Source: Bacillus sp. FJAT-22090
Lineage (GTDB): Bacteria; Bacillota; Bacilli; Bacillales_A; Planococcaceae
Reading direction: 5' to 3'
NCBI RefSeq assembly: GCF_001278755.1
Contig: NZ_CP012601.1
Span: 2,232,001 to 2,296,000 of the forward strand
Length of the DNA stretch: 64,000 bases
In this document: piece by piece, positions 3,790-35,220 of the stretch
Numbering within the stretch: position 1 is the first letter of the stretch
Layout of the letters: each line of letters begins with the position of its first letter
Position numbers and translations under genes: made by a program
The notes under the pieces: generated by a model
Told to the model about the DNA's origin: nothing
Seen by the model: only the letters and a program-made list of their open reading frames with translations
Database searches by the model: none

Positions 3790-4059
3790 TTATGGTTGAT
3801 TAAGACCTATTTGCTAAAAAATAATAAAAAATTGGCGAATAATGTCATGTTAAATAAGGAAGATAAAGAGTCATAAACTAAGACAACAGAAAGGTTTTTC
3901 AACTTTCTCATAAATAAGTTCCTTCTCGAAACGACTGTTTGTTTTTGAAGAGGGATTGGTAGCTTACACTAATATTCTAGCTACTATTTTTTGATTCAGT
4001 TAGACTTGATAAGATTACACTTATCCAACATAAGGATTTCATTTTTATTACAAGACGTA

Positions 4060-4740: not shown

Positions 4741-4791
4741 GGAATTTCACGTTTAGCAAATATTAATAAAACATATTATTCTTCAACAAAA

Positions 4792-4820
4792 AAACGAGTG
4801 GTCATTACGACCACTCGTTT
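4792..4820 (-). terminator. Rho-independent terminator after LCP gene
   Basis: AAACGAGTGGTC and its exact complement (12 bp) around a five-base loop, followed on the minus strand by a T-rich run. It begins at the stop codon of the LCP gene and therefore ends the polymer transcript here. Confidence 0.85.
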
Positions 4821-7167: not shown

Positions 7168-7180
7168 AGCTATCACCGTT

Positions 7181-8044: not shown

Positions 8045-8092
8045 GTTCATTCCCCTTTTCATTTATCAGTCAGTATTGAATCAACTGTCTGA

Positions 8093-9157
8093 TCAATATT
8101 TATTATATAAAGAAAGCATATAATGCGCATTATCTATCCAGCTATAATTTTCTTTTACATGGTCCACTCCAGCTTTACCCATTGAAGCTCTAAGGTCACT
8201 ATTTCTAGCTAGCTTTTTAAATGCTGCTGCTAGCTGATCTGGACTGTTTTTATCCGTTACGATGCCAGTTACGTCTTGAACGACTACTTCTGGCAAGCCG
8301 CCAACATTGGAAACAACAACCGGTACACCACAGGCCATTGCCTCAACTGCTGCTACACCGAAGCTTTCACTATCCTCTGTAGAAGGAACAGCAAAAATAG
8401 ACATTTTACGAATGACATTAGGTACTTCCGTATTCGGTACTTTTCCAGTGAAGGTTGTAACCTCATCAATACCTAAATCTTTTGCAATTTGCTCATATTC
8501 AGCTCTTTGAGGGCCGTCTCCTGTAATAATAAGCTCAGAATTCGGAAATTCCTTATGGAACAACGCAAAGCCTCTTACTAAATCGGCTATACCATATTTG
8601 TCTTCTAAAGCTTTAACTGTCCCAACGATAATTTTTTCGTCCGCTTCAGCTACTTCTTCAGAAGGGTAAAATTGTTCAATATCTACACCAAAAGGAGTTA
8701 CTTCTACTGGACGATTTGTGTATAGATTAGTTTCTTTCGCCATAACACGACTTGTGGAACAAATAGCAGTTGCTTTACTTAACGTAAATTCGATTAGCAT
8801 TTTATTTAATCTGCCTTTTTTAGGGAATACAAAAATATCTTTTCCCCACACTGACACAAAATACTTTTTATAGTTAACCATCGCACCTAATAAGCCGTAG
8901 CTTGATACAAAGTGTGAGTGTAAAATATCTGGATTCCAATCTTTTAGCATCTTTTTCAAGGCTGGTGCTGCTGCCAAGTAGGAAGCTTTACCAGGTAATA
9001 CTTTTGGTAAAATTTCTGTAGGTATTAGTTTAGCATTGTCTTCAGAGTAATGATCTTTAAATGTATACACTTTTACTTCAATACCTTGTGACTGATAAAA
9101 CAAAGCCCATTTTTGTGTATGAATTGATTTACTTGGAGCTAATAATGCTATTTTCAT
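8093..9157 (-). CDS. Glycosyltransferase family 4
   Basis: The 354-residue GT-B enzyme starts MKIALLAPSKSIHTQKWA. In the donor half it has VGTVKALEDKYGI, ITGDGPQR, FTGKVPN and the E-x7-E motif region EDSESFGVAAVEAMACGVPVV, diagnostic of retaining GT4 transferases. It has no signal or membrane segment and so acts in the cytoplasm on the lipid-linked intermediate. An AGGAGG site precedes the ATG, and the ATG overlaps the stop of the upstream gene by ATGA, so the two transferases are translated together. Sugar specificity is unknown. Confidence 0.92.
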   Translation of the reverse strand: MKIALLAPSKSIHTQKWALFYQSQGIEVKVYTFKDHYSEDNAKLIPTEILPKVLPGKASYLAAAPALKKMLKDWNPDILHSHFVSSYGLLGAMVNYKKYFVSVWGKDIFVFPKKGRLNKMLIEFTLSKATAICSTSRVMAKETNLYTNRPVEVTPFGVDIEQFYPSEEVAEADEKIIVGTVKALEDKYGIADLVRGFALFHKEFPNSELIITGDGPQRAEYEQIAKDLGIDEVTTFTGKVPNTEVPNVIRKMSIFAVPSTEDSESFGVAAVEAMACGVPVVVSNVGGLPEVVVQDVTGIVTDKNSPDQLAAAFKKLARNSDLRASMGKAGVDHVKENYSWIDNAHYMLSLYNKY

Positions 9158-10269
9158 TTTATGCCTCCTATCAGCGCATGCGCCGCTTGTTCGGCACGTT
9201 CATTCCATGCATGCTTCTGTAAAAACGATTGTTGAATATTTCTTTTATATGTTGAAAAATGTGGTTTGATTGATTGCATTCCTTGAACGAGTCCTTCTGC
9301 ATCGTCGGTCGTAATAACTCCATATGGACCTGACTGGATAAAGTCTTCTTGTGCGGAACAATTTGTTGCGATAATTGGTAGACCTGCAGTTAAATATTCC
9401 ACTAGTTTTATCGGAACAGCAAAATCATTGTAGATTGATCTTTTTCGAGGAATAAAGGCAAAGTCTACTTCTTCATATACTTGTTGTAGTTCTGCACCAC
9501 TAACATGCTTTAATGAAATATAATCTTTGTTTATCTTTTCTTTATCTTCTTTACTTAATTGGCCAAACTCATCTTCACGACAAACAATTATTAATTCACC
9601 TAATACACTGTCTTTATTTAACAGATTGTAAGCATCTACTAGAGTTGGCAATCCATAATCCACATTGTTAATGCCACCAACATAGATTCCCTTAAACGGT
9701 TGTTGAATCTCATTTGTATTTACACGAATTTCAGTAAACCGTCCACCTGGTGGAAGTGCCATTTTCTCAGTGCGTATATTTACATACTGACCCATAGCAT
9801 CGCTTGGTAAAAAAATTGTATGCACATATTTTTCGTAAAATTTTTCTTCCATTTTATAAATAGTTTGCATGACGAATTTTTTCAACCCTTTTAATGAATA
9901 AAGTTCGTCAAACTTCCAATAGACATCTCGATAAAAAACACCGATTGGTACATTAAGATTCTTCAACGTTTGAAATACATCTTTATCTATTTTCCAATCC
10001 TGTGGTTTATGACCTGGATCGGTTAGCCAAAGAGGAATCGTTTGGTTTTCCGAATAGCAAAACAATGTTTGCTCGTGTTTTTTCTCTTCAACAATCTTGT
10101 TCCAAAGCACACGTCTTTCTTTACTAGTTCCAGATATAACAATCATTTCAAGTTCATACTTTTTTGCATATACTTCAAATGCCTTCATCATTTCAACTGG
10201 TCGTAATGCAGAGCCACTTTTTGGGTTGGAAGCGACTGTAAAAGGATAATAGATAATTATATTCTTCAT
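9154..10269 (-). CDS. Glycosyltransferase, GT-B fold
   Basis: A 371-residue protein starting MKNIIIYYPFTVASNPKSG. The C-terminal half looks like a GT4 donor domain: IYVGGINNVDYGLPTLVDA, IIVCREDEF, FAFIPRKRS and FAVPIKLVEYLTAGLPIIATN. The N-terminal half is less typical, so it may be a divergent polymer-specific transferase. The start at 10269 overlaps the polymerase stop as ATGA with GTGAAGG in front; the longer open frame reaching 10377 would lie in the polymerase gene and is rejected. With the ATGA overlaps at both ends, the polymerase and two transferases form a tightly coupled set. Confidence 0.8.
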   Translation of the reverse strand: MKNIIIYYPFTVASNPKSGSALRPVEMMKAFEVYAKKYELEMIVISGTSKERRVLWNKIVEEKKHEQTLFCYSENQTIPLWLTDPGHKPQDWKIDKDVFQTLKNLNVPIGVFYRDVYWKFDELYSLKGLKKFVMQTIYKMEEKFYEKYVHTIFLPSDAMGQYVNIRTEKMALPPGGRFTEIRVNTNEIQQPFKGIYVGGINNVDYGLPTLVDAYNLLNKDSVLGELIIVCREDEFGQLSKEDKEKINKDYISLKHVSGAELQQVYEEVDFAFIPRKRSIYNDFAVPIKLVEYLTAGLPIIATNCSAQEDFIQSGPYGVITTDDAEGLVQGMQSIKPHFSTYKRNIQQSFLQKHAWNERAEQAAHALIGGIK

Positions 10270-11654
10270 GCCTTCACTCTTTTCTTCTTCACTTTGCTCA
10301 TCAGAAAACTCCATATTACCGTAAAGTATTGTTCTAAAATATATAATCCAGCTAAAACAACTGTCGTCATAATCCAAATAGGGTTAAATAAGAAATCGGA
10401 AACCCCACCGACAAGAGTTCTTGGAATATTAATTGTAAAATATACAAATAATGCGATGACAACTGGTGTTTTTCTTAATCTCAAAAAGAGCATATAAATG
10501 ATTTGAATGATTGCCGCAACGTAAATAATTGCAGCAATGACACCAAAATATCCATAAGTAGCAAAAGCTTCTCCTAAGAATATTGTATTTAATACTCCAC
10601 CAGTTCCTTTATCCACGTTCTCAGGAAAAACGTTTTCCATCATCATTCGAGCAGAACGAACTTGTTCCATATCAAAAAAGCCAATGATAAAAGAAGGAAG
10701 TCCTTTTGCTTCTAGTAAAGATAGTGAATGAGAGAACGAATCCAAATGTAAGAAAAAAGGCGAGATTTGCGCCAAGATTATTCTTCCGATTGGACCAGTA
10801 TTATAAGCTAAAAAGCTTTCTACCTCTGTCACTCCTTGTATAGCAATATACATACCGATTAAAAGTATAGCACCAGCAATAAGGTAACCACTTATCTTTT
10901 TCCAATTAAGTTTTAAGCTATTTGAAAAAACTCTCGTAAGTATTAACATGATGACATAAAAGAAAATTGGAGATTTAGCTAAATCATATGTAGAAATTAA
11001 TACTGAAAATATGAAAAGCGTAAAAAATAGTGTCTTCCAAATTATTTCTCTTGTTTGAATTGCATATACATACGCAATGATCGATAGTATTGGCGTTAAA
11101 GCAATAGCAAAGATATTCCGGATGTACACGTTTCCACTAAACCCTCTTGATGCATCAATACGCATCTTAGCAAGATCCTCTGTATTTCCCTTTAATAGTT
11201 CAAAAAAAGGAACTGAATGCGTCTTTAATAAAGTATAAGCAACAGCTAAAACAGATATTGCAGCAAGAGCAGTAAATGCAAGCTGAAATATTCTCTTATT
11301 CTTATCTACACTTGTACGAACGGGTTCATGTAGGTATCGTTCAAATTCTAATTGTGCATTAAAACCAAAAAGTCTCCCTACAACTAGCTGCGTAAGTGGG
11401 AACAAAATCATTAATATCGTCAATAAAACAAATCCAATGATCCGATATTCCTCATGGTCCATTCTTTTGATCATATAATAATCATCTATTCCTAATGCGA
11501 TTAATAATCCGCCAATATAACTGGAGATAAGGAATGAATAATAATATATTATAGAAATCATATTTGGCTTTACAAGAGAAAGGCTTCCAGAAACCTTTTG
11601 GAAAAGGTATGTGGAAGCCACCACAGTAAAGAGCCATATGCTAAAAATTAACAA
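10266..11654 (-). CDS. Oligosaccharide repeat-unit polymerase (Wzy-like)
   Basis: The 462-residue integral membrane protein has about twelve hydrophobic segments and a long extracellular loop (about residues 295-355, containing MEQVRSARMMMENVFPENVDKG). This matches O-antigen or capsule polymerases, which join lipid-linked repeat units outside the membrane. Wzy proteins share topology more than sequence, so the call rests on topology plus the flippase, chain-length regulator and transferases around it. The start is TTG at 11654 with AGGTG six bases ahead. Upstream lies a palindromic element, which suggests the cluster may have been assembled from modules. Confidence 0.82.
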   Translation of the reverse strand: MLIFSIWLFTVVASTYLFQKVSGSLSLVKPNMISIIYYYSFLISSYIGGLLIALGIDDYYMIKRMDHEEYRIIGFVLLTILMILFPLTQLVVGRLFGFNAQLEFERYLHEPVRTSVDKNKRIFQLAFTALAAISVLAVAYTLLKTHSVPFFELLKGNTEDLAKMRIDASRGFSGNVYIRNIFAIALTPILSIIAYVYAIQTREIIWKTLFFTLFIFSVLISTYDLAKSPIFFYVIMLILTRVFSNSLKLNWKKISGYLIAGAILLIGMYIAIQGVTEVESFLAYNTGPIGRIILAQISPFFLHLDSFSHSLSLLEAKGLPSFIIGFFDMEQVRSARMMMENVFPENVDKGTGGVLNTIFLGEAFATYGYFGVIAAIIYVAAIIQIIYMLFLRLRKTPVVIALFVYFTINIPRTLVGGVSDFLFNPIWIMTTVVLAGLYILEQYFTVIWSFLMSKVKKKRVKA

Positions 11655-11775: not shown

Positions 11776-11798
11776 AATTCAGCTTAGGTTGCTGAATT
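11776..11798 (-). terminator. Hairpin overlapping the epimerase stop codon
   Basis: AATTCAGC and its exact complement (8 bp) around a seven-base loop. It overlaps the TAA of the epimerase gene (11797-11799). No T-run follows, so it is a weak terminator at best or an mRNA-stabilising hairpin. Confidence 0.4.
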
Positions 11799-12861
11799 AA
11801 GCTGTATATTCCTTTAGTAAAGCTAACACTTTTTCAGCTGTTTTTCCATCTCCAAAAACAGGAGAATATGATGGAGTCACTTGCTTTTGTACTGCTTCAA
11901 CTATTCTAGTCGTATCTGTACCAGTAAGGATATTCGCGTCTTCTATTAGAGTTTCTACCCACTCAGTTTGATCTCGTACTGTCACACATGGAACTTCGGC
12001 AAAATATGCTTCTTTTTGAACTCCACCAGAATCAGTTACTATTTTTTTAGCGTTCATTTCTAAAGAAAGCATATCTAAATAACCAACTGGTTCAATAACT
12101 TGTAAGTTAGGGATTTGGTCCAATTGGAATCCATAATCCTCTAGTTTTTTCTTTGTACGCGGATGGATCGGCCAAACTTTATTGTCAGGAATTTGACTAA
12201 ATGCATCTAAAATCGATTTCATACGATCAACATCATCCGTATTTTCAGCACGGTGAATCGTAATGAGTAAATAATCTTTTGCTCGTAACTTTTCACGTTC
12301 TAAAATAGAAGAGGTGGATTCCGCAAGTGTTTTATTGTATAAAACTGCGTCATACATAACATCACCAATATTATAAACGCCATTCGTAATGTTTTCGTTT
12401 GTTAAGTTTTGGATAGCAGTATCTGTCGGGCAAAGAAGCAAGCTCGACACATGATCTGTTAAGATACGGTTTACTTCTTCTGGCATTTTCATATTAAAGC
12501 TTCTAAGACCTGCTTCGATATGCACGATTGGAATATGAAGTTTTGCCGCAGCTAGTGCACCTGCAAGTGTAGAGTTAGTATCCCCATATACAAGTACAAA
12601 ATCCGGTGTTTCTGTTAAAATAATATCTTCAATTTTAGCAAGCATTTCGCCAGTCTGCTTTCCGTGATTTCCAGAACCAATACCTAAATGATAATCTGGT
12701 TTGGGAATGTTCAACTCGTCAAAGAAGATATCAGACATATTTGCATCATAGTGTTGACCCGTATGCACGATAAGCTCAGTAACCTCTTCTCGTAATACAC
12801 GCGAAACAGGAGCTGCTTTAATAAATTGTGGTCTTGCCCCTAGAATGGTAAGAACTTTCAT
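11797..12861 (-). CDS. UDP-N-acetylglucosamine 2-epimerase family (WecB/WbpI type)
   Basis: Non-hydrolysing C2 epimerase of 354 residues. Motifs are ARPQFIKAAPVSR, VHTGQHYD, VYGDTNSTLAGALAAAKL, HIEAGLRSFNMKMPEE, HRAENTD and TDSGGVQKEAYF, which form the UDP-sugar site. It could make UDP-ManNAc (WecB/MnaA), but WecB proteins are usually near 375 residues while WbpI, which epimerises UDP-2,3-diacetamido-glucuronate to the manno form, is about 354. The other four Wbp-type enzymes are in the same cluster, so I favour the WbpI role. The ATG overlaps the stop of the asparagine-synthase-like gene as ATGA. Confidence 0.85.
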   Translation of the reverse strand: MKVLTILGARPQFIKAAPVSRVLREEVTELIVHTGQHYDANMSDIFFDELNIPKPDYHLGIGSGNHGKQTGEMLAKIEDIILTETPDFVLVYGDTNSTLAGALAAAKLHIPIVHIEAGLRSFNMKMPEEVNRILTDHVSSLLLCPTDTAIQNLTNENITNGVYNIGDVMYDAVLYNKTLAESTSSILEREKLRAKDYLLITIHRAENTDDVDRMKSILDAFSQIPDNKVWPIHPRTKKKLEDYGFQLDQIPNLQVIEPVGYLDMLSLEMNAKKIVTDSGGVQKEAYFAEVPCVTVRDQTEWVETLIEDANILTGTDTTRIVEAVQKQVTPSYSPVFGDGKTAEKVLALLKEYTA

Positions 12862-14456
12862 TTTGTAATCTCCTTTATCATTTGAATCATATCTTTTACG
12901 ATAAACGAATTAATATTGTATGGATGCTCGTATTTTTGACCATCTCTTTTAAACGTTAGTGATTTGACGTATTGTTTATACGTTGGATAGATTCCATACC
13001 ACTCCATTGGTTCATCAAAATATTTTCGATAAAGATTTTTCATTCGATATATTTTGCGCAATAAAGGATAGAGTAATCCATATTTATTTCTCATCGAATT
13101 TTCAGGACCTGGCTTTTCTGGTAATGGATAATAATCCGGATACATTTTGTGCAATGTGTAATCGTACAAATATTTTTTATACTTCAAATCAACTGGAACC
13201 TTACTGAAAAAGTGAATCAATCGGTCATCCCACAATGGAATCGACCATCCTTGTCCAAAATATTCATAAACTCTAACAGAGTTTATAATAAACTTTGATT
13301 GTCTTTCTCTCCAGTTCCACTCATCAATAATAGAAGTCACACGCTCATTCGTGTAATTTGAGTAAACTTCTATATCTTTTATGAGCCCTCTACCAATAGT
13401 AGTCGAAGCATAGCTTTTCTCACCTGAAAGCTCCCATAATCGGAAATGTTTATTCATGATAAAGGTTTGGATTTCACTTACTTCAAAATCTTTATTTACA
13501 ATCGATTCGTATGGTAAATGTCCACCAGCCAAGTAATCTAATGAGTGCCCTGGTAAAAATACGGCATCCTTTAGATTTTCCTCTTGAACTAGAAGCTTCG
13601 TACTTGGAAAATCTTGAAGATGCGCTACAGAAACTCCGTTACTGGAATACACAACGTAGTCTTTCCAATCTGTTGATCGATACATTTCTTCCCACATCTT
13701 TTTATCATATGCGAAATATTTCCACTTAAGGCCTAGACGATCCGCAATTTGCTTACTCACTGTGGATTCTCCATTACCGGGTCGACCATATGTAAAGGTA
13801 GTAATAGAATCTTTCAACCCTCTTTCTACCAACATAAGAGCGATCAATCTTGAATCATATCCACCACTTAGTGGAATGACAATTTGTTTACCTTGTAATC
13901 TATCTGCCAAATCGTCAAACAATGAATGAAACACATGTTCAAGCTCTTCTGCAAATGAATCAATGGATTCTGGTTCTTTCTCCAACACATACGAATAATA
14001 ATAAGTTTGTTTTGCTTGATCCGTCAATGTGACTGTTGACACGGCAGGCACTTGGTACCAATTTTCATACAAAGTCTTATCTCTAAAAACAAAGCCTGTT
14101 ACAAGAAACTCCTCTTCCGATTCTTTTCTCAATTTCATGCCTTCATGAGGCTCGATAAAGTCTTGGACTATCCAGTTTCCTTCTTTATCTGTTGAATAAA
14201 AAAGTGGAATGGATCGTTTCATATCCGTAACAAGCGTTGTCTTGTTTTCATTCATAAAAATTAGAGCATATTCTCCGTTCCATCGAGCAAACTCCATGGA
14301 AAAAAGATCATCATTGTTAAATAGGCTCGCAAAATTTTCATGGGTGACATATTGATTTTCATAGTAGAAATAACCTCTAAAAAAACCTTCATACCCCACA
14401 CCTTTAATAGGATAAAAATCTTTATGCCTAAGGTTAGTTATACATTTTTTCGACAT
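12858..14456 (-). CDS. Asparagine-synthase-like amidotransferase without N-terminal Cys
   Basis: A 532-residue homologue of AsnB. The C-terminal synthetase half has the ATP-pyrophosphatase loop PLSGGYDSR (about residue 196) and a TFTYG motif. The N-terminal half keeps the Ntn-hydrolase-like fold pattern (ARWNGEYALIFMNENKTTLVTD) but lacks the Cys2 nucleophile needed to hydrolyse glutamine. It would thus use free ammonia or another partner. Such enzymes occur in polysaccharide clusters, where they amidate uronic acids; WbpS in Pseudomonas O6 is the precedent. Here the likely substrate is the diacetamido-uronic acid made by the neighbours. That role is an inference. It is 13 bases from the flippase gene upstream and overlaps the epimerase gene downstream. 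Confidence 0.8.
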   Translation of the reverse strand: MSKKCITNLRHKDFYPIKGVGYEGFFRGYFYYENQYVTHENFASLFNNDDLFSMEFARWNGEYALIFMNENKTTLVTDMKRSIPLFYSTDKEGNWIVQDFIEPHEGMKLRKESEEEFLVTGFVFRDKTLYENWYQVPAVSTVTLTDQAKQTYYYSYVLEKEPESIDSFAEELEHVFHSLFDDLADRLQGKQIVIPLSGGYDSRLIALMLVERGLKDSITTFTYGRPGNGESTVSKQIADRLGLKWKYFAYDKKMWEEMYRSTDWKDYVVYSSNGVSVAHLQDFPSTKLLVQEENLKDAVFLPGHSLDYLAGGHLPYESIVNKDFEVSEIQTFIMNKHFRLWELSGEKSYASTTIGRGLIKDIEVYSNYTNERVTSIIDEWNWRERQSKFIINSVRVYEYFGQGWSIPLWDDRLIHFFSKVPVDLKYKKYLYDYTLHKMYPDYYPLPEKPGPENSMRNKYGLLYPLLRKIYRMKNLYRKYFDEPMEWYGIYPTYKQYVKSLTFKRDGQKYEHPYNINSFIVKDMIQMIKEITK

Positions 14457-14469
14457 GTCTTTTCCCCCA

Positions 14470-15885
14470 TTACTTTCTGTTCACAAAATATTTATCCATT
14501 CGAACAAGTAGTATTAAGATAATAAATACTATCCATACTCCTACAATTAACCAGCTATTTAAATCTTCTAATTGTACATATACAATGCTAAGTGTTGCCG
14601 CTATTAACCAAAATATTGTCCAAGCCATTTTAAATCCTGAGAATGGCACATAATAAAGCTTTTGACTTCTGCGGAACACTATAAATAATGCTAAACAATA
14701 TGATCCTACATACGAAATAACAGTACCCCATATTGAAAAAATCGGTACGAATATAAAATTTAATATTAACGATACAACTGCCGCGATTCCAAATGCGATA
14801 GAAATATGTTTCGTTTGTTTCGTGTAAAATATCCCTGTTGAGACAATCATATAATAAAAACTTAAAAATGTAGCGATAGAGATTGGTGCTACATATTGAA
14901 ACGCAATTCTAAATTTCTCTGGCATAACCATAATAATCCATGGCATAGCAGTAGCTAATAGTAAAACTCCTAAACTACCTATCAATAAGAATGCGGCATA
15001 TAAAGTAGAAAATAATTTTGGACTACTTTCTTTATCTTTTAGCGACATTGAAAATGGTCTCCAAGCTAGTTGTATTCCACTAGTCAGTAAAGTAATGAAT
15101 GTAGCAAATTTGATAGCTGTACCGTAAATCCCTACATCAGATATAGTTGCATATGCTGTTAAAAAGTAATTATTTGCATTTGCGATTATCCAAAAAGCTA
15201 AAGATGCAGGAACCAAAGGAGCGGCATAAACTAAGATTTTCTTTAAAATATTCCAATCAAACAAAGGGCGTAAGTATACTCTTACTGGTTTTATTAAAAC
15301 TAATACAATAATTCCTACACTTATTAATCTTGCTAATAGTATACCTTCAAGTGAAGTCCAAACGAACATTAAGAAGAGAATAGAAACGATGGCTATCAAA
15401 AGCATCTTTCCAACAGTTGTAGCTACCACTCTCTTAGTATGAAATTCATATCTTAAAATCGTTAATACTAGTGTTACTATAGTGTCTAAGCAAAGTGTTC
15501 CAAGTGCAATGTAGAATAATTGAGAGTATCCATCAGAGTCTAATAATAATGAAGAAAGCCAATCTCCACCAATTAAAAATACGACGAATAATAAGATAAC
15601 CATCGTTAATCGGAAAGTCATGACGGAACGAACATATTTTTCGCGTGTTTCTTTATCTTTATACTCAAAATAATAATATGCTAAAGCCGAATCGGTACCA
15701 AATATCACTAAGAATGTAAGCATTGATACATTGGTATCGACAAGCTGAAGCAACCCGATTTGCGATGTATCATCTAAATAATGGGCATATAAAGGAAACA
15801 ATATAAAAGCGATGAGCTTCGTTCCTACATTCATAAATGCGTAAAGGAGCGAATCCGCTCCTAAACGTTTTAGCTGAGAAAACAC
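14470..15885 (-). CDS. Polysaccharide flippase (Wzx, PST family)
   Basis: The 471-residue protein has about twelve to fourteen transmembrane helices and begins MFSQLKRLGADSLLYAFMNVGTK, typical of the MOP/PST superfamily. It moves lipid-linked repeat units across the membrane for the Wzy-like polymerase. The GTG start immediately follows the TAA of the acyltransferase gene with no gap, and GAGGA is about ten bases ahead, so translation is coupled. Confidence 0.9.
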   Translation of the reverse strand: MFSQLKRLGADSLLYAFMNVGTKLIAFILFPLYAHYLDDTSQIGLLQLVDTNVSMLTFLVIFGTDSALAYYYFEYKDKETREKYVRSVMTFRLTMVILLFVVFLIGGDWLSSLLLDSDGYSQLFYIALGTLCLDTIVTLVLTILRYEFHTKRVVATTVGKMLLIAIVSILFLMFVWTSLEGILLARLISVGIIVLVLIKPVRVYLRPLFDWNILKKILVYAAPLVPASLAFWIIANANNYFLTAYATISDVGIYGTAIKFATFITLLTSGIQLAWRPFSMSLKDKESSPKLFSTLYAAFLLIGSLGVLLLATAMPWIIMVMPEKFRIAFQYVAPISIATFLSFYYMIVSTGIFYTKQTKHISIAFGIAAVVSLILNFIFVPIFSIWGTVISYVGSYCLALFIVFRRSQKLYYVPFSGFKMAWTIFWLIAATLSIVYVQLEDLNSWLIVGVWIVFIILILLVRMDKYFVNRK

Positions 15886-16617
15886 TTAGAGAAGTTCCTC
15901 CTCAGGTACATTTTTCAAGAATTTTGCAGGGAAACCTTTTATGACAGTTTTTTCTTCCGTATCTTTTGTAACAATTGCTCCAGCTGCAACAAAGGTTTCT
16001 TCTGCAATTGTAATTCCAGGAAGAATAATAGATGCTCCACCTACGCGAGCTCCTCTTTTTACAGTTGCACCTTTAATTTTATCAAAACGTGCTTCTGTTC
16101 TACCCATAAAGTTATCATTTGTTGTCGTCACACATGGTGCGATGAATACTCGATCTTCTAAAGTAGAATGCGCTGTAATATAAGAATTCGATTGAATTTT
16201 AGTACGGTCACCAATTTTCACGAAGTTTTCTACTGTAACATTACGACCGATTATAACAAATGAGCCAACTTCAACATCTTCACGTACAGTTGCAAGGTCA
16301 GCGATTAGTGTACTTTCACCAATCACTGCACCTCTATATATAATTGTATTAGCTCCAACAGTACATTCTTTTCCAAGTTGTAGAGGCGGAATTTCTTTTG
16401 TAATTTGCATCGTGCTAGTTTTAGCAGGTTTCGGTTGTTTTCCTACTACAGCTCCATCATCAATTGTTGTACCATCACCGATAATTGAGCCAGCATGAAT
16501 CGTTACACGATTACCTACTCGAACATTGTTACCAATTTTCGCGCCTTCTTCAATGACTGAGAAATAACCAACAGTTGTATTTTCGCCAAGTTCAGCAGTT
16601 TCATGTATAAAGTTCAT
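15886..16617 (-). CDS. Hexapeptide-repeat sugar N-acetyltransferase (WbpD-like)
   Basis: A left-handed beta-helix acyltransferase of about 243 residues with many [LIV]-G-x4 hexapeptides (GENTTV, IGNNVRVGNRVTI and others). The central part with ITAHSTLEDRVFIAPCVTTTND resembles WbpD/WlbB, which acetylates the 3-amino group of UDP-GlcNAc3NA using acetyl-CoA. It is longer than WbpD (about 190 residues) because of extra N-terminal coils. ATG at 16617 is preferred: AGGAG is eight bases upstream, whereas the GTG at 16623 is only two bases from it. It follows the dehydrogenase gene by 12 bases. Confidence 0.82.
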   Translation of the reverse strand: MNFIHETAELGENTTVGYFSVIEEGAKIGNNVRVGNRVTIHAGSIIGDGTTIDDGAVVGKQPKPAKTSTMQITKEIPPLQLGKECTVGANTIIYRGAVIGESTLIADLATVREDVEVGSFVIIGRNVTVENFVKIGDRTKIQSNSYITAHSTLEDRVFIAPCVTTTNDNFMGRTEARFDKIKGATVKRGARVGGASIILPGITIAEETFVAAGAIVTKDTEEKTVIKGFPAKFLKNVPEEELL

Positions 16618-16629
16618 GTTCACAGCTCC

Positions 16630-17946
16630 TTATAGTTTGATATAACGATTTGGAGTTTCAATACCTTTAAATGCATTACGAGTATCAAAAATTACTTTTG
16701 ATCTTTTCGCGATGTTTTCATAATCAAAAGCAGTATGATCCGTTGCTAAGACTACGATATCTGCCTCATCTAGAAGTTCATCCGTTAATTCAGTCGTTTC
16801 TAAAACTTGACCATTTACTCTGAACTTCCCTACATGCGGGTCAACCGTTTTGAACTCTGCACCATGGTGTAATAACAATTCAACCAATTTTAATGATGGA
16901 GATTCGCGCATATCATCAATATCTTTTTTATAAGCAACTCCAAGCAATAATACTTTTGCGTTACGCAGTGCTTTACCTTCATCGTTTAATATTTGCATTG
17001 CTCGAGTGATAACATAGTCTGGCATAGAGTTATTAATTTCACCAGCTAATTCGATTAATCTAGTGTGGTAGTTATATTCTCTAGCTTTCCATGTTAAATA
17101 GAAAGGATCGATTGGAATACAGTGTCCACCTAGTCCAGGACCTGGGTAAAACGCCATGAAGCCATATGGTTTTGTTTTTGCAGCATCAATAACTTCCCAA
17201 ACGTCAATTCCCATTTTTTCACATAAAATAGCCATTTCGTTTGCAAGGGCAATATTAATATGACGGAAGGTATTTTCAAAAATCTTTTCCATTTCAGCAA
17301 TTGCTGGGCTGGATACTTTATGAACATCCCCATCTAAAACACTGCTATAAAGTGCAGCTGCTACATTTGTACATTTTTCCGTTATACCACCAACAACTTT
17401 TGGTGTATTTTTTGTATTAAAGCTTTTATTACCTGGATCAATACGTTCTGGAGAATAAGCGATGAAAATATCTTCTCCAACTGTAAATCCTTTATCTTCT
17501 AATGCTTTTCTAATAATTTCTTCTGTTGTACCAGGATACGTTGTTGATTCTAGAACTACTAATGTACCTTTTTTAGCATATTTAGCAATTTCATTCACTG
17601 AGCTTTCAACGTAAGAAGTATCAGGTTGTTGGTAAATATCTAATGGAGTTGGTACACAAATTGCTACGGCATCTACCGAGCTAATAGAACCATAATCAGA
17701 AGATGCTTTTAAGTGACCTGACTCTACCATATCTTTTAAATCATGATCTACTACGTCTCCGATATAGTTAATACCTTCATTAACTTGTTGTACTTTTGAT
17801 TCTTGTACATCAAAACCGATTACATTGTAACCAGCTTTTGCTTTTTCAACAGCAAGTGGTAATCCAACGTAACCTAATCCCACAACACCAATTGTAGCTG
17901 TGTGGTTCTCAATTTTCGCTAATAGTTCTTCATAGTATGTAGACAT
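16630..17946 (-). CDS. wbpA: UDP-N-acetyl-D-glucosamine 6-dehydrogenase (WbpA-type)
   Basis: Nucleotide-sugar dehydrogenase of 438 residues, the first oxidation in the route (UDP-GlcNAc to UDP-GlcNAcA, two NAD+). It shows the Rossmann motif VVGLGYVGLPLAVEKAKAG, VPTPLD, ESTTYPGTTEE, the catalytic Cys in GPGLGGHCIPIDP, and a C-terminal GVAYKKDIDDMRESPSLKL. The VGEDIFIAYSPERIDPGN block fits the UDP-HexNAc dehydrogenase branch (WbpA/WecC) better than UDP-glucose dehydrogenase. Nearby WbpB-, WbpE-, WbpD- and WbpI-like genes support this. Substrate choice between GlcNAc and ManNAc cannot be fixed by reading alone. Confidence 0.88.
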   Translation of the reverse strand: MSTYYEELLAKIENHTATIGVVGLGYVGLPLAVEKAKAGYNVIGFDVQESKVQQVNEGINYIGDVVDHDLKDMVESGHLKASSDYGSISSVDAVAICVPTPLDIYQQPDTSYVESSVNEIAKYAKKGTLVVLESTTYPGTTEEIIRKALEDKGFTVGEDIFIAYSPERIDPGNKSFNTKNTPKVVGGITEKCTNVAAALYSSVLDGDVHKVSSPAIAEMEKIFENTFRHINIALANEMAILCEKMGIDVWEVIDAAKTKPYGFMAFYPGPGLGGHCIPIDPFYLTWKAREYNYHTRLIELAGEINNSMPDYVITRAMQILNDEGKALRNAKVLLLGVAYKKDIDDMRESPSLKLVELLLHHGAEFKTVDPHVGKFRVNGQVLETTELTDELLDEADIVVLATDHTAFDYENIAKRSKVIFDTRNAFKGIETPNRYIKL

Positions 17947-18090
17947 AATTGTCTCTCCTTTATTATCAATAAGAATGGAAAACTTGTTTTTTTATTTGCA
18001 CCATTATTAATGTGGTATCTGCAACATTCTAACGCTTCTTTAACCGATTAGAAAGTAGAAAGTATTCTATTTAGTAACTGTCTAGACTTC

Positions 18091-18190
18091 AGGCGCCATC
18101 AGCTCGAGGTCAAATGCCAATTTTCTCCGGTGGCTGAGGAACTGCCTCCTCGAAAATTGACATTAGCTTGTCGCTGATAAGCAGGCGCCT
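18091..18190. repeat. GC-rich imperfect palindrome with AGGCGCC ends
   Basis: A 100-base element in the 257-base gap between the WbpB-type and WbpA-type genes. AGGCGCC at the left end pairs with GGCGCCT at the right, and CAATTTTC (18118-18125) pairs with GAAAATTG (18152-18159), with ATCAGC/GCTGAT segments between. It has no promoter or T-run I can recognise. The GGCGCC arms recall the units at 4060-4740. Likely a dispersed repeat; a structural RNA role is possible. Confidence 0.65.
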
Positions 18191-18203
18191 TTCGCTTTTC
18201 CTA

Positions 18204-19217
18204 TTAAGAGAAAGAAATACGTTTTCCTGTTTCGGATGATTCAATAATAGCTTCGATCAAACGAACTGGATTATATCCGTCTATACCACTAACAGCTGGC
18301 TCACGATTTTCATTTATTGCAGCTACCATATCCTCAATAATACAATCGTGTCCTTTTTTACCCCAAGGATCGTTTTGTATACGTGATTTTAAAGATTCTA
18401 CTTCCTCATCTTTATAACCTTCTACATCCCACGTTTCAATATATAAAGCATTTTTCCCACTAACTTTCACACTAGCAGTTTCTCCAAAAATAGAAAGGGA
18501 TTCTTCAAGGTTTTGAGGATAGATGGTTGTAGCAGCTTCTATTACGCCAAGTGCCCCACTTTCAAATTCGACAATTCCAGTAGCAACGTCTTCTGTTTCA
18601 ATATCACGGAATCTTGTTGCGACCAAACCTTGAACCGATTTCACTGGGCCCATAAACCATAAAAGCAAATCCAAATTATGTATTGCTTGATTCATTAGAA
18701 CGCCACCGTCAAATTTTTTCGTTCCTCTCCACGGAGCTTGATCGTAATATTCTTGTCCTCTGTTCCATCGAACAGTTGCATTTGCATGGCTTATCTTACC
18801 AAAACCATTAGCATCCATCAGTTTACGAACTTCCATAATTGCCGGACGGTATCTATTTGGATGAACAATTGCAAGTTTTACACCCTCAGAGTTTGCTACG
18901 TCCATCATCTCTTTCGCATCTGCTGAATTTAAAGCCATCGGTTTTTCTGTAATTATATGTTTTTTATACTTTGCAACAATCTTAGTCAAATTAGCGTGAA
19001 GACCAGATGGCACACAAATATTCACTACGTCAATTTGAGGGTTGTCCGCAAGCATTTTATCTAAGTCAGTATATTTTAATACGTTTTCATCATCTATTAT
19101 TAGTCTATCTGGGTTTGTATCACAAATGGCAAATAAGTTTGCGCCTTCTGTATTGCGAATAGCAGCTATATGTTTATCTGCGATGAAACCCATACCTACA
19201 ATTGCAAATTGAATCAT
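18204..19217 (-). CDS. wbpB: Gfo/Idh/MocA oxidoreductase, WbpB/WlbA type
   Basis: NAD-dependent 3-dehydrogenase of 337 residues. Rossmann start IVGMGFIADKHIAAI, then TEKPMALN with the catalytic Lys, and the WlbA-like segment HPNRYRP...VRWNRGQEYYD...WRGTKKFDGGVLMNQAIHNLDLL, where the His is catalytic. WbpB oxidises the C3 hydroxyl of UDP-GlcNAcA to the 3-keto sugar for WbpE. The start overlaps the Wzz-like stop (ATGA), with GAGGGAG upstream. Specificity for the WbpB reaction is supported by the full set of partner genes. Confidence 0.87.
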   Translation of the reverse strand: MIQFAIVGMGFIADKHIAAIRNTEGANLFAICDTNPDRLIIDDENVLKYTDLDKMLADNPQIDVVNICVPSGLHANLTKIVAKYKKHIITEKPMALNSADAKEMMDVANSEGVKLAIVHPNRYRPAIMEVRKLMDANGFGKISHANATVRWNRGQEYYDQAPWRGTKKFDGGVLMNQAIHNLDLLLWFMGPVKSVQGLVATRFRDIETEDVATGIVEFESGALGVIEAATTIYPQNLEESLSIFGETASVKVSGKNALYIETWDVEGYKDEEVESLKSRIQNDPWGKKGHDCIIEDMVAAINENREPAVSGIDGYNPVRLIEAIIESSETGKRISFS

Positions 19218-19951
19218 GCTCTTTTACTCCCTCTTGCTTCTAAAATGTATTTCCATAAAGATAAAATAAAGATTGTCAATAATAACCCTAAGACTAATCC
19301 TGCAATCGCACCTTCTAAACCATAAGATTTAGTTTTTACAACGGATGTTTTTGCCAACTCAGGATGTTCGAATGCAATAATATCATTTCTTACACGTTGC
19401 TCTGTAGCCATTGCATTTGTTAAATCCATCTCAGCAGCACTTAACAAAGTTGTGTAATTATTTATAACAGTGAGATTATCAGTGCCCGCCAAAGCAGTTT
19501 TATATGCTTCAATTGTTGCGTTTAAAGTTTTTACACGTTCTGACTGTGCAGATGCATACGTTTCGGTACCTGTAATAATTTTATCATCTTGTTTCATTAA
19601 GGCTTCTAACAATTGATCATTAAATTGGGTAAGCTCTTTTGTTACTGTTTCTTCGTTATCACCATAGACTTCTGTCTTAATATAACTTCTAGTTGGAACA
19701 AACACTTCTGATTTCCCTGAGAAATGTTGACCATATTTAGCCATAATATGGTCTGGATTTGTTAAAGCCTCTAGTTTCACTGAACCAGTGAATACTGTAC
19801 TTTTACCAACATAATCGCCATCTTTAGGAATAAGCATTGAACCAAAATAGCCTAAAATGGCTGCAATTAATGGGATAATGATAAACCATACTTTCTTTCT
19901 CCAAAAAAATTCTAATGAATCGTATAAACGATAGCTTTTATTTTCCGTCAT
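19214..19951 (-). CDS. Wzz-like polysaccharide chain-length determinant
   Basis: A 245-residue membrane protein with a Wzz domain: N-terminal transmembrane helix (about 21-42, after SLEFFWRKKVWF), an extracellular mainly helical region with a coiled-coil portion (about 110-190), and a C-terminal helix (about 215-237). It lacks the tyrosine-kinase (Wze/CpsD) part and no separate kinase gene is nearby. Such proteins set the polymer length together with Wzy. It follows a hairpin and is translationally coupled to the WbpB-type gene. Confidence 0.85.
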   Translation of the reverse strand: MTENKSYRLYDSLEFFWRKKVWFIIIPLIAAILGYFGSMLIPKDGDYVGKSTVFTGSVKLEALTNPDHIMAKYGQHFSGKSEVFVPTRSYIKTEVYGDNEETVTKELTQFNDQLLEALMKQDDKIITGTETYASAQSERVKTLNATIEAYKTALAGTDNLTVINNYTTLLSAAEMDLTNAMATEQRVRNDIIAFEHPELAKTSVVKTKSYGLEGAIAGLVLGLLLTIFILSLWKYILEARGSKRA

Positions 19952-19987
19952 TTCACTTCTCCTTCAAAAAACATCTAAATATAGGCA

Positions 19988-20021
19988 GGTAGAGGGAAAC
20001 GTGTTAACGTTCCCCTCTACC
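19988..20021 (-). repeat. 15-bp hairpin between aminotransferase and Wzz-like genes
   Basis: GGTAGAGGGAAACGT pairs with its complement with one mismatch around a four-base loop. On the minus strand no T-run follows, so it may stabilise or partly terminate the transcript and lower the expression of downstream genes. Confidence 0.5.
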
Positions 20022-20035
20022 AAATTGCCGTTTTA

Positions 20036-21148
20036 TTATTTCGCAAAAAACTCAGCAATCTTCTCTACAACGTATTGTTGTTGTTCCTCTTTTAATTCTG
20101 GGAACATCGGTAAAGAAAGTGCTTGATCTGCAGCTTTTTCTGCTTTAGGGAAATCCCCTTTTTTATAGCCTAAGCTTTCAAAAACAGGTTGAACATGCAA
20201 TGGTAGAGGGTAATAAATCATCGTTGCAACACCGTTTTCTTTTAAGTAAGCTTGTAATTCATCGCGGCGTTCAGTCAATATTGTGTATTGGTGAAATACG
20301 TGATAGAACCCTTCTGCTATTACAGGTGTTTGAACATGTTCAGACACTTTTTCATTTAGTAAGTTTGTGTAGAATTCTGCATGCTCTCTGCGTTGTTCAC
20401 CCCATTTATCTAAATGAGGGAACTTCACATTTAATACAGCTGCTTGTATCTCGTCTAAACGGCTATTATACCCAAGAACGCTATGATAGTATTTTGGTTT
20501 ACTACCATGCACACGAATTACTCTACTTTTTTCAGCGATATCATCGTTATTTGTAACGACCATTCCACCATCACCATATGCACCAAGGTTTTTAGTCGGG
20601 AAGAAACTATAAGTAGCTGCATCTCCTAATTGACCAACTGAATATTCACCTTGTTTAGCTCCAATTGCTTGAGCTCCATCTTCAACTACAATTAGGTTAT
20701 GTTTATCAGCGATTTCACGAATGCGCACCATATCTGCCATTTGACCATATAGATGTACCGGAATAATCGCTTTTGTTCTATCTGTAATATGTTTTTCAAT
20801 TTCTGCAGGATCAAGATTAAACGTTACTGGATCAATATCAGCATAAACTGGAGTTGCTCCAGCTCTTACAATTGCTCCACCTGTTGCAAAAAATGTAAAA
20901 GGTGTTGTAATTACTTCATCTCCAGCACCAATTCCAGCAGCTTGTAGAGCAATATGTATTGCATCACTACCATTTCCACAACCTATACCATGAGAAACAT
21001 TACTATACTTAGCGATATCCGCTTCCAGTTTCTTCACGTTATCACCTAGAATAAATTGTGAACTACTCATAACACTATCTAATGCTTCCAATACTTCACT
21101 TTTTAAAGATGCATATTGCTCAGATAAATCTAACATTGGTACTTTCAT
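20036..21148 (-). CDS. wbpE: DegT/DnrJ/EryC1 aminotransferase, WbpE type
   Basis: PLP-dependent sugar aminotransferase of 370 residues. Hallmarks: LDLSEQYASLKSEV at the start, GCGNGSDAIHIAL, EDGAQAIGA, and the PLP lysine in SFFPTKNLGAYGDGGMV. It ends in a small domain with NSRLDEIQAAVL and MFPEL. WbpE converts the 3-keto sugar from WbpB to the 3-amino sugar with glutamate as donor. It is separated from tagO by a palindromic region and from the Wzz-like gene by a hairpin, so it may have its own promoter in the gap 21149-21357. Confidence 0.9.
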   Translation of the reverse strand: MKVPMLDLSEQYASLKSEVLEALDSVMSSSQFILGDNVKKLEADIAKYSNVSHGIGCGNGSDAIHIALQAAGIGAGDEVITTPFTFFATGGAIVRAGATPVYADIDPVTFNLDPAEIEKHITDRTKAIIPVHLYGQMADMVRIREIADKHNLIVVEDGAQAIGAKQGEYSVGQLGDAATYSFFPTKNLGAYGDGGMVVTNNDDIAEKSRVIRVHGSKPKYYHSVLGYNSRLDEIQAAVLNVKFPHLDKWGEQRREHAEFYTNLLNEKVSEHVQTPVIAEGFYHVFHQYTILTERRDELQAYLKENGVATMIYYPLPLHVQPVFESLGYKKGDFPKAEKAADQALSLPMFPELKEEQQQYVVEKIAEFFAK

Positions 21149-21357: not shown

Positions 21358-22422
21358 CTAGTTGCGCTTATACCCAACAACCTTCCGGAACACAGAAATA
21401 ATTGGTCGATAATCTTCGTTAACAAGACCAATTTTTTCTGCAATAATTTCAAACGCGATCAAGATAAAGACAAGGATAAAAATTGCCCATCTTAATGTTA
21501 ACGTTTCAAAAGTAATGGCAGCGATACTAAATATCAAACCAAATCCGTATATTACTAATACCGTATCTCGATGTGTTAATCCAAGCGCTAATAATCGATG
21601 ATGCAAATGTGATTTATCTGCAACCGATATCGGCTTTCTATTTACAAGTCTGCGTATTATGGCAAACGATGTATCAAAAATTGGTACTCCTAAAATCATA
21701 ACTGGTACAACAAAGCTAAACAATGTCACACTTTTGTACAATCCTAATAACGATAGAATGGCGATAGCATATCCTAAAAACATAGATCCTGTATCACCCA
21801 TAAAGATTTTCGCTGGGTAAAAGTTGTGAAAAAGAAATCCAAGTGTACTACCTAACAATATTAAGGAAAGAGTTAATATTAACATTTTATCTGCTGAAAA
21901 TGCCAGAAATGCAATACTAGCAAATACAATAGAGGAGATACCTGCTGATAACCCATCTAAACCATCTATTAAGTTGATTGCATTTGTAATTGCCAAAATC
22001 CAAAATAATGTAACGAGATATGAAAATATCCCAAGATCAAATACACCTAAAAATGGGATATTTAACACTTCAATTGTTAGACCACTTCCCATTACTGCAC
22101 AAGCAGCAAGAATCTGGCCTAATAATTTTATTTTCGCAGAAATTTCATATTTATCATCTATTATTCCCAAAACAATGATAATCAATGCACCAACCATAAT
22201 ACCAGTGATTTTTGCTTCATATAATCCTGCCACAAAATATCCAACTGTAACTGCAATGAATATTGCGAGTCCACCTAATCTTGGCATCACGTTTTGATGA
22301 ACCTTCCGTTTGTTAGGTTTATCTACAGCCCCAATTTTATGTGCCAGTTTTATAACGAGTGGAGTAACAGCGATAGCAGTTACCAGGGATACGATAAAAG
22401 CAAGAAGTAATTTTATATCCAA
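21358..22422 (-). CDS. tagO: Undecaprenyl-phosphate GlcNAc-1-phosphate transferase
   Basis: The 354-residue MraY/WecA-family membrane enzyme with about ten to eleven helices. Motifs: IGAVDKPNKRKVHQ, MPRLGGLAIF, the catalytic Asp pair in GIIDDKYE, NAINLIDGLDGLSAG, FMGDTGSMFLG, and HLHHRLLALGL. It transfers GlcNAc-1-P to undecaprenyl phosphate and so starts wall teichoic acid, teichuronic acid or SCWP synthesis. I take the TTG at 22422 (AAGGA eight bases ahead; N-terminus MLD as in B. subtilis TagO); the ATG nine bases earlier nearly touches the ribosome site. As the first gene of the cluster it should set the reducing-end sugar. Confidence 0.93.
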   Translation of the reverse strand: MDIKLLLAFIVSLVTAIAVTPLVIKLAHKIGAVDKPNKRKVHQNVMPRLGGLAIFIAVTVGYFVAGLYEAKITGIMVGALIIIVLGIIDDKYEISAKIKLLGQILAACAVMGSGLTIEVLNIPFLGVFDLGIFSYLVTLFWILAITNAINLIDGLDGLSAGISSIVFASIAFLAFSADKMLILTLSLILLGSTLGFLFHNFYPAKIFMGDTGSMFLGYAIAILSLLGLYKSVTLFSFVVPVMILGVPIFDTSFAIIRRLVNRKPISVADKSHLHHRLLALGLTHRDTVLVIYGFGLIFSIAAITFETLTLRWAIFILVFILIAFEIIAEKIGLVNEDYRPIISVFRKVVGYKRN

Positions 22423-22560
22423 AAATATCATCCTTGTCTTTTTATTTAAGTTTCCTTTTTATTTCTACTCAACCAATAGACGAATCAGCAACATGAAAGT
22501 TTCCTCAATTAATGATTATACTATAAAAATAGAGTTGTAACCAAGTTTAATATAAATAAA

Positions 22561-22680: not shown

Positions 22681-23094
22681 TCATGAGAAATCTGGCCAAT
22701 TTACTTGAAACTCGTCTCCATCAATTTGCTCAAGGGTACGATACTTGAATGGTAGCAATTCATCCATTTCTAATTCTTCCATTGCGTTTTCAAGAGGGTA
22801 TAATTGAAAACTATCATCATCTTCTACAATTAAATAAGCACCTGCAACTTGTCCCTTTTCTTTAATGTTGATTCGTATGAAAGCAGGAAAATACAAATCA
22901 TTTTTGGACTGAATAATAGAAGATGCAAGAATTACATTTTTACCATCTTGAACTACATTGTCTTGATCAATTTTTTCAAACACTTTTAGAGCCCATGCTT
23001 GGCGTTTGTAATAACCAATTACTTTTGGTGCATGTTCTTCTGCCGATGAACTAGGTGAATTTTTACCCACCTTATTTTTTTCTTCCGAAGCCAT
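22681..23094 (-). CDS. Uncharacterised 137-residue cytoplasmic protein
   Basis: I do not recognise a family. The N-terminus is charged and Ser-rich (SSSAEE), probably disordered to about residue 25; the rest has alternating beta-type segments (KVIGYYKRQAWALKVFEKI, YFPAFIRINIKEKGQVAGAYLIV) and an acidic end. No signal peptide or membrane helix. It is a monocistronic gene with a terminator after it, between tagO and the surface-protein operon. Codon use matches its neighbours. Confidence 0.7.
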   Translation of the reverse strand: MASEEKNKVGKNSPSSSAEEHAPKVIGYYKRQAWALKVFEKIDQDNVVQDGKNVILASSIIQSKNDLYFPAFIRINIKEKGQVAGAYLIVEDDDSFQLYPLENAMEELEMDELLPFKYRTLEQIDGDEFQVNWPDFS

Positions 23095-28141: not shown

Positions 28142-28174
28142 AGATTTTGGAATATAAAAGTAGGGAGAATGAAA

Positions 28175-35099: not shown

Positions 35100-35220
35100 A
35101 AAAATCTCCATTTCTTTCTTAATTGAAAGGCGTATTTCACTATTACAATTTCATACAATTTATTCTATTTTAACTTAGGGAAAAGTAGAACACAATCCTT
35201 CTTCATGTTTTACACAATAA

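Follow-up and report, generated by a model that had tools for sequence, protein, structure and literature searches.

We analysed a window of 64,000 nucleotides (positions 2,232,001 to 2,296,000 of contig NZ_CP012601.1, forward strand) from Bacillus sp. FJAT-22090, whose genome is 4.21 Mb in one contig. The window contains a minus-strand gene cluster that probably directs synthesis and assembly of a secondary cell wall polymer (SCWP), teichuronic-acid-like and of the Geobacillus stearothermophilus type, which would anchor about ten proteins with an SbsC-type domain. The families of the enzymes, the specificity residues of the 2-epimerase, the synteny of the locus and its co-occurrence with the anchor domain can be read from the sequence. 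Several features of a Geobacillus-type SCWP locus were observed: an aminotransferase, a Wzz-like gene and a 3-dehydrogenase gene in this order, Wzx and Wzy genes, and the SbsC-type domain in the same genome. Judged by the 3-dehydrogenase gene, its closest named relatives are a group of eight strains with 87-91% identity, of which seven are titled Psychrobacillus and one Bacillus sp. From position 22431 down to 4820, the cluster has the following order:

21358 to 22431, minus strand: TagO/WecA-type GlcNAc-1-phosphate transferase, predicted to start the repeat unit (Pfam Glycos_transf_4, 144 bits; WecA model 176 bits, below its cut-off of 326)
20036 to 21148, minus strand: pyridoxal phosphate-type sugar aminotransferase, putative WbpE role (Pfam DegT_DnrJ_EryC1, 425 bits; PDB 7b0d 365, QdtB 361 and WbpE 274 bits)
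19214 to 19951, minus strand: Wzz-like protein (two membrane segments by eye, and gene position)
18204 to 19217, minus strand: putative UDP-GlcNAcA 3-dehydrogenase of the WlbA class (Pfam GFO_IDH_MocA; best PDB matches 3q2i and 3q2k, 208 and 206 bits)
16630 to 17946, minus strand: UDP-sugar 6-dehydrogenase, putative WbpA role (three Pfam UDPG_MGDP dehydrogenase domains; TIGR03026 449 bits, above cut-off)
15886 to 16623, minus strand: hexapeptide sugar N-acetyltransferase, putative WbpD role, longer and QdtC-like (Pfam Hexapep; QdtC 98 bits, WlbB [3mqg] 68 bits)
14470 to 15885, minus strand: Wzx-type flippase (Pfam Polysacc_synt, 52 bits)
12858 to 14456, minus strand: asparagine-synthetase-like protein of 532 residues (motif, and fold of the predicted model)
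11797 to 12861, minus strand: putative UDP-GlcNAc3NAcA 2-epimerase, WbpI role (Pfam Epimerase_2, 366 bits; Ala16, Tyr92 and Trp301)
10266 to 11654, minus strand: Wzy-type polymerase (TIGR04370 51.7 bits, cut-off 40)
9154 to 10377, minus strand: glycosyltransferase (the listed open reading frame [ORF] runs into the Wzy gene, and translation probably starts further downstream)
8093 to 9157, minus strand: GT4 glycosyltransferase (Pfam Glycos_transf_1, 139 bits)
7181 to 8062, minus strand: GalU, predicted to supply UDP-glucose (TIGR01099 388.5 bits, cut-off 326.8)
5950 to 7176, minus strand: WcaI-like glycosyltransferase (profile match)
4820 to 5866, minus strand: LCP transferase, predicted to attach the polymer to peptidoglycan (LytR_cpsA_psr, 162 bits)
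4791 to 4821, minus strand: terminator-like hairpin directly 3' of the LCP gene (stem of 14 pairs followed by a T-rich tail)

An initial annotation of this DNA had proposed that five of these genes form a complete WbpA-B-E-D-I-type route to UDP-2,3-diacetamido-2,3-dideoxy-mannuronic acid (UDP-ManNAc3NAcA). The five ORFs lie where it had placed them, all on the minus strand, and their Pfam families agree with every label. Among the polymer genes that it had named around this set, TagO, Wzx, Wzy and LCP were recognised by family match. The Wzz-like label comes from inspection by eye and from gene position, with no Pfam or NCBIfam match at E 0.001. The asparagine-synthetase-like gene and the SbsC_C proteins had escaped the initial annotation. 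For comparison, 80 loci (numbered with L) were retrieved by the 3-dehydrogenase alone; they are the best 80 of 344, and some are cut by contig ends.

Of the solved structures, the Thermus thermophilus UDP-GlcNAc3NAcA 2-epimerase was the best relative of the window 2-epimerase (427 bits); 4neq and 1f6d, which we take to be a Methanocaldococcus enzyme and Escherichia coli WecB, scored 340 and 143 bits. The Thermus enzyme is described as fitting its bulkier substrate with Trp 307 in place of a conserved Arg, Ala 18 in place of Leu/Met and Tyr 96 in place of His/Gln, the replaced Arg being a binder of the C-3' hydroxyl (PMC10622841). The window 2-epimerase carries all three residues (Ala16, Tyr92, Trp301). 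Its stretches RPQFIK, YGDT, EAGLRS and GQH, with the catalytic Lys, Asp and Glu and the allosteric Gln/His, align with the Thermus enzyme. The Ala/Tyr/Trp triad was kept in 40 of 42 epimerase relatives from the compared loci; L055 has Leu for Ala, and L065 has Val for Ala in a sequence that ends before the Trp. We also examined 30 control Epimerase_2 proteins of the same bacterial family, 29-32% identical to the window 2-epimerase. Met/His/Arg was present in 29 of them and His/Arg in one fragment lacking the first site, i.e., all 30 differ from the window enzyme at the sites they show. These controls were the best Epimerase_2 matches returned as loci by a search of 150 genomes, not a random draw, and most of the genomes hold more matches. 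No second Epimerase_2 (PF02350) gene was found in the genome. The initial annotation had assigned the gene at 11797 to the WbpI type and had raised an active site closer to WecB/WecC as the contrary outcome; for the epimerase, both the score difference and the triad favour the WbpI type.

For the other four enzymes, the grounds for the assigned roles are gene linkage and the substrate that the epimerase seems to require, a 3-acetamido uronic acid, rather than one-to-one orthology. The closest solved kin of the 3-dehydrogenase, 3q2i and 3q2k, lead the next match (90 bits) by more than 110 bits; the PDB table lists them as dehydrogenase/oxidoreductase, and we take them to be WlbA of Chromobacterium violaceum and Bordetella pertussis. 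A sequential mechanism is described for WlbA of Chromobacterium and Bordetella, and an alpha-ketoglutarate-coupled ping-pong mechanism for Pseudomonas aeruginosa WbpB (PMC10622841). As a solved relative of the aminotransferase, WbpE was outranked by 7b0d, QdtB, 2oga, 3uwc and 7n63. The acetyltransferase has 245 residues vs about 190 for WbpD/WlbB, and QdtC is closer to it than either. QdtC also stood above WlbB when its predicted structure was compared with known folds, a comparison in which only the ranking was used (predicted template modelling score 0.50; root-mean-square deviation of the matches near 14). Relatives over more than 85% of its length were present in 73 of the 80 loci. The 6-dehydrogenase passed only the general TIGR03026 cut-off; every substrate-specific NCBIfam model remained under its own, and the single epimerase gene of the genome is the argument for its role. 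The WbpA-B-E-D-I assignment thus holds for families and roles; for WbpB, WbpD and WbpE it is an analogy of role and not a demonstrated orthology.

Relatives of all five enzymes were found together in 40 of the 80 loci, indicating that the five-gene set is no chance grouping. Within the compared flanks, the epimerase alone was missing in 33 loci and other enzymes in 7. The aminotransferase, Wzz-like and 3-dehydrogenase genes stand in a row, as here, in 25 loci (hereafter syntenic), including five Geobacillus genomes, Anoxybacillus tepidamans and Bacillus methanolicus. Relatives of Wzx, the epimerase and Wzy were also present in 21 of these 25, and 16 had the next two glycosyltransferases too. 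Four of the five Geobacillus loci are among the 21; the fifth (L020) has no Wzx match. No G. stearothermophilus strain is among the 80 loci. Some of the 33 four-enzyme loci lacking the epimerase, L022 included, may feed GlcNAc3NAcA straight into other polymers.

The SbsC_C domain (PF18058) had 11 matches in the genome, 10 of them over the cut-off, and none in 14 control genomes. The matches in the window are:

34026 to 35111, minus strand: protein with an SbsC-type SCWP-binding domain (PF18058 E 5e-33, residues 52-183; signal-like N-terminus by eye)
49964 to 52276, minus strand: 5'-nucleotidase-type enzyme with SbsC_C at residues 57-181 (PF18058 match)
49031 to 49801, minus strand: partial SbsC_C match (24.9 bits, below the cut-off of 27)

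The genome-wide set includes two 5'-nucleotidase-type enzymes and four neighbouring proteins of 741-786 residues. The latter are encoded side by side at C1:2423433-2435318 (L153) and are candidate surface layer (S-layer) proteins. The 34026 protein aligned with residues 5-208 of 2ra1 and residues 6-207 of 4uic/4uj6, all named surface layer protein in the PDB table and presumably SbsC; a 745-residue protein elsewhere in the genome matched the same N-terminal part with 75 bits. The match of the 34026 protein is to the N-terminal part of a surface layer protein, and the SCWP-binding domain listed for SbsC is likewise N-terminal (PMC12175726).

Among the 80 genomes with the 3-dehydrogenase, SbsC_C was present in 22 of 25 syntenic genomes vs 7 of 55 others (Fisher p 9e-11). 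After collapse to one row per genus and type, the proportions were 10/11 vs 3/36 (p 6e-7). These genomes are related rather than independent, so the tests overstate independence and the p-values are a guide only. The same trend was seen between syntenic and other genomes within Metabacillus (3/3 vs 0/2), Alkalihalobacillus (1/1 vs 0/2) and Rossellomorea (1/2 vs 0/1). We also used 121 genomes of the family (numbered with G); three draws of this size were taken as one genome set, as their size and listed handles agree (86-91 matchless rows per draw are unlisted). SbsC_C over the cut-off was found in 9 of the 121 (G101, with a match below the cut-off, is not counted). All nine belong to this genus and carry both the epimerase and the asparagine-synthetase-like gene. 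In 106 of the 121 there was neither such an epimerase nor SbsC_C. Within the genus, nine of the 12 genomes drawn had all three features and three had none of them. The initial proposal that the sugar belongs to a wall polymer is strengthened by the synteny with Geobacillus and by the SbsC-type proteins.

In the pathway that we infer, UDP-GlcNAc would be oxidised at C6 by the 16630 gene product and then at C3 by the 18204 gene product, aminated by the 20036 gene product, N-acetylated by the 15886 gene product, and lastly epimerised at C2 by the 11797 gene product to give UDP-ManNAc3NAcA. TagO would place GlcNAc on undecaprenyl phosphate, and the three glycosyltransferases would add Glc, from the UDP-Glc made by GalU, and ManNAc3NAcA. 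The unit would be flipped by Wzx and polymerised by Wzy under regulation by the Wzz-like protein, and the LCP enzyme would join the polymer to peptidoglycan, where it would serve as the wall anchor of about ten proteins with SbsC-type domains. The sugars described for the SbsC-bound polymer are GlcNAc, Glc and diacetamido-mannuronic acid (PMC8559796), the same three that would come from TagO, GalU and the five enzymes, which argues for a polymer of the Geobacillus type.

The locus can be compared with several described systems. It resembles the Geobacillus SbsC-type SCWP in its predicted sugar supply (PMC8559796) and in its synteny with five genomes of Geobacillus species other than G. stearothermophilus, four of which carry SbsC-type proteins, as does the genome analysed here. 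However, the asparagine-synthetase-like gene is extra here, and the GalU gene forms part of the cluster, an arrangement shared with L010, L011, L014 and L016 and not seen in the compared Geobacillus stretches. A reference list dates the description of the Geobacillus polymer to 1999 (PMC1262761). The five reaction types and the epimerase specificity residues are shared with the WbpA-B-E-D-I pathway of P. aeruginosa and Thermus (PMC10622841). It differs from that pathway in a 3-dehydrogenase nearest 3q2i/3q2k, the Thermus enzyme not being listed at E 1e-10, and in an acetyltransferase that is longer and closer to QdtC. The Utr locus of Streptomyces griseus is likewise assigned to a Gram-positive wall polymer, with a proposed five-enzyme route to ManNAc3NAcA (PMC13274773). 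However, the Utr polymer is described as a teichuronic acid on wall teichoic acid, with predicted growth by alternating addition of single sugars (PMC13274773), whereas the locus here has TagO, Wzx, Wzy and LCP genes in a genome without a TagB/F-type match. ManNAc3NAcA is also reported from a polysaccharide of Cutibacterium acnes (PMC6598116). A ManNAc3NAcA pathway for a Gram-positive wall polymer has already been proposed; what this analysis adds is a conserved cluster tied to the SbsC-type anchor domain, with a candidate amide-forming gene. Among titles, abstract starts and passages of open-licence PMC literature, no gene cluster for the SbsC-bound polymer surfaced; in the same literature we found no account of a Psychrobacillus cell wall polymer and no polymer structure for this organism.

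Several observations weigh against a Geobacillus-type polymer. With about 30 bits, the 34026 protein is a modest match to solved SbsC, and the relatedness of the genomes applies to every co-occurrence count. In Fictibacillus the trend is reversed, with SbsC_C in 0/1 syntenic genomes and in 3/7 others. Three syntenic genomes (L020, L022, L047) have no SbsC_C; viewed post hoc, L020 lacks Wzx and L022 lacks the epimerase in the compared stretch, and L047 is complete. The seven non-syntenic genomes with SbsC_C carry one to three copies, and in 6 of the 121 family genomes an epimerase of 55-70% identity is present and no SbsC_C match passes the cut-off. The 33 loci with the first four enzymes and no epimerase in the compared flanks show that these four alone do not imply a manno sugar. 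SLH proteins are encoded at two places in the genome. The 6-dehydrogenase and the aminotransferase score below all substrate-specific curated cut-offs, and the acetyltransferase is nearer QdtC, leaving room for a different acyl group or a different site for it.

These last points bear on a different uronic acid, which would arise if the hexapeptide enzyme added a non-acetyl group or if the aminotransferase/acetyltransferase pair used another keto sugar. The higher scores of QdtC over WlbB (98 vs 68 bits, and by fold in a poor model) and of QdtB over WbpE (361 vs 274 bits) are in its favour. However, the scan of the cluster proteins called no gene for a dTDP-sugar route, and a 3-acetamido uronic acid suits the Trp/Ala/Tyr pocket of the epimerase. 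Conservation of the set in Geobacillus, where a diacetamido-uronic acid polymer is known, also speaks against it. We consider this alternative unlikely. A WecB/WecC-like route, in which UDP-ManNAc would be oxidised to UDP-ManNAcA and the other three genes would serve a separate amino sugar, is very improbable. The best solved relative of the 6-dehydrogenase is 4r16, named UDP-N-acetyl-D-mannosaminuronic acid dehydrogenase, and the second is Cap5O, which we take to be a UDP-ManNAc dehydrogenase; the wecB model scores the epimerase at 325 bits (cut-off 210). Such a route needs the other kind of epimerase; the sole Epimerase_2 gene found in the genome fits the UDP-GlcNAc3NAcA kind, having Ala/Tyr/Trp instead of Met/His/Arg and 427 vs 143 bits, and the five genes are linked in half of the loci (40/80). 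The WecB/WecC route was therefore rejected on the specificity residues and the single epimerase gene. We also rejected a wall teichoic acid joined through the common ManNAc-GlcNAc linkage unit, as searches of the genome gave no match to the WecG/TagA or TagB/F families, and SLH/CsaB anchoring as the main use of the polymer, as the genome gave no match to a CsaB-type pyruvyltransferase. Bacillus subtilis, the positive control, was matched in the WecG/TagA, TagB/F-type and CsaB-type searches alike.

The Geobacillus-type polymer may be modified here through the product of the asparagine-synthetase-like gene (12858-14456). Most of its predicted model (mean local confidence, pLDDT, 73.6) could be matched to asparagine, beta-lactam and carbapenam synthetases, with a template modelling (TM) score near 0.5. 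The motif PLSGG.DSR was invariant in 10 of 10 aligned sequences, including the ATP-PPi motif SGG.DS. By motif and by the overall fold of the model, the protein belongs to the asparagine/beta-lactam synthetase superfamily. Class II glutaminases use an N-terminal Cys nucleophile, usually right after the initiator Met. The 12858 protein has no Cys next to its initiator Met. A Cys5 is kept in the window protein and in six Psychrobacillus-type rows (7/10); L018 and L024 lack it, and the G001 row does not reach back to this position. The enzyme may use ammonia or another amine, or may expose Cys5 through loss of a short propeptide. Its score with TIGR03108, the family in which WbpS is placed (PMC7468200), was 37 bits vs a cut-off of 817; the protein may act like WbpS, and we do not class it as one.

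The gene stands between Wzx and the epimerase in L018, L024 and all six of the loci L002-L009 that reach so far (6 of 8). In G001 it stands between Wzx and Wzy, beside Wzz, with the epimerase on another contig; this arrangement points to a tie with the repeat unit rather than with the nucleotide sugar. It was present in 10 of the 121 family genomes, all ten with the epimerase (a 20.8-bit match in G006 is left out of this count), and was not found in the compared stretch of the five Geobacillus loci. We also considered whether the gene travels with Wzx. The number of label changes was 2 in the Wzx tree and 3 in each of the Wzy, 3-dehydrogenase and epimerase trees, which differ in their rows (G001 is in the Wzx and Wzy trees only), and the trees were too weak to claim such a link.

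As an extension of the proposed pathway, the 12858 enzyme would amidate the uronic acid carboxyl, giving a polymer with ManNAc3NAc-uronamide or an amine-substituted amide that is less acidic than that of Geobacillus. We give this slightly less than an even chance. The fold matches, the invariant motif, the site of the gene and its absence from the compared Geobacillus stretches are consistent with it. A precedent is described in Porphyromonas gingivalis, where formation of the uronamide version of a Wbp-pathway sugar depends on the asnB-like PGN_1234, which lies next to wbpE and wzx; the same account describes Tannerella forsythia as having no asnB homolog and the sugar in its acid form (PMC7468200). 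Asparagine-synthetase-family genes beside Wbp-type genes, as found here, are also described for the WbpS-type amidotransferases of Helicobacter pullorum and P. aeruginosa O6 (PMC7468200, PMC6025236). Against amidation are the lack of a Cys beside the initiator Met, a feature that also sets the protein apart from the WbpS type, with Cys5, which loss of a propeptide may expose, not kept in L018/L024; the TIGR03108 score far under the cut-off; the moderate confidence and TM score of the model; and trees that hint only weakly at a link with Wzx (2 vs 3 changes). The substrate could also be another acid. A fuller proposal, put forward tentatively and with the odds somewhat against it, is that the SbsC-type wall polymer is amidated or amine-capped in Psychrobacillus and a small number of relatives, through an enzyme seemingly without the standard glutaminase nucleophile that amidates the ManNAc3NAcA carboxyl, and that the SbsC-type domains of their surface proteins read this less acidic polymer.

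Other features of the window were also noted. Terminator-like sites in the region numbered 14 vs 9.6 expected from shuffles, and the hairpin at 4821-4791 has the longest stem listed. A promoter scan gave 52 sites, fewer than the shuffle mean of 76, and no promoter is claimed. At 4013-4703, between the LCP gene and an amidase gene, a unit of about 204 bases is repeated three times in tandem; a 188-residue ORF within these repeats is probably spurious. Upstream of TagO, a 137-residue protein with no family match (22681-23094, minus strand) has relatives of 69-80% identity in L002-L009 and of 40-47% in L014, L016, L017 and L019, where they are also upstream of TagO. Near TagO there is also a protein with a NAGPA phosphodiester glycosidase domain (23212-25707, minus strand). 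NAGPA-type enzymes cut GlcNAc-1-phosphodiesters, and some teichuronic acids are fixed to the wall by bonds of this kind; as an idea only, this protein could trim or release the polymer. A SecA (28169-30544, plus strand), near the Bacillus anthracis-type SecA2 model (1034 bits, cut-off 1085), adjoins the polymer cluster and an SbsC_C protein, and may export surface proteins. A second, TagU-like LCP transferase is encoded at 32725-33633 (plus strand; 416 bits, cut-off 441). An SLH-domain protein lies at 62012-63460 (plus strand), in this genome without a CsaB-type match.

Research on the SbsC-type S-layer anchor and its acidic wall polymer has for a long time dealt with chemistry and structure, and the locus provides a concrete, conserved candidate cluster for that polymer. 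The co-occurrence of the cluster with the domain that would read its product makes it testable in Geobacillus or Psychrobacillus, and the asparagine-synthetase-like gene predicts that the charge of the polymer is altered in some lineages.

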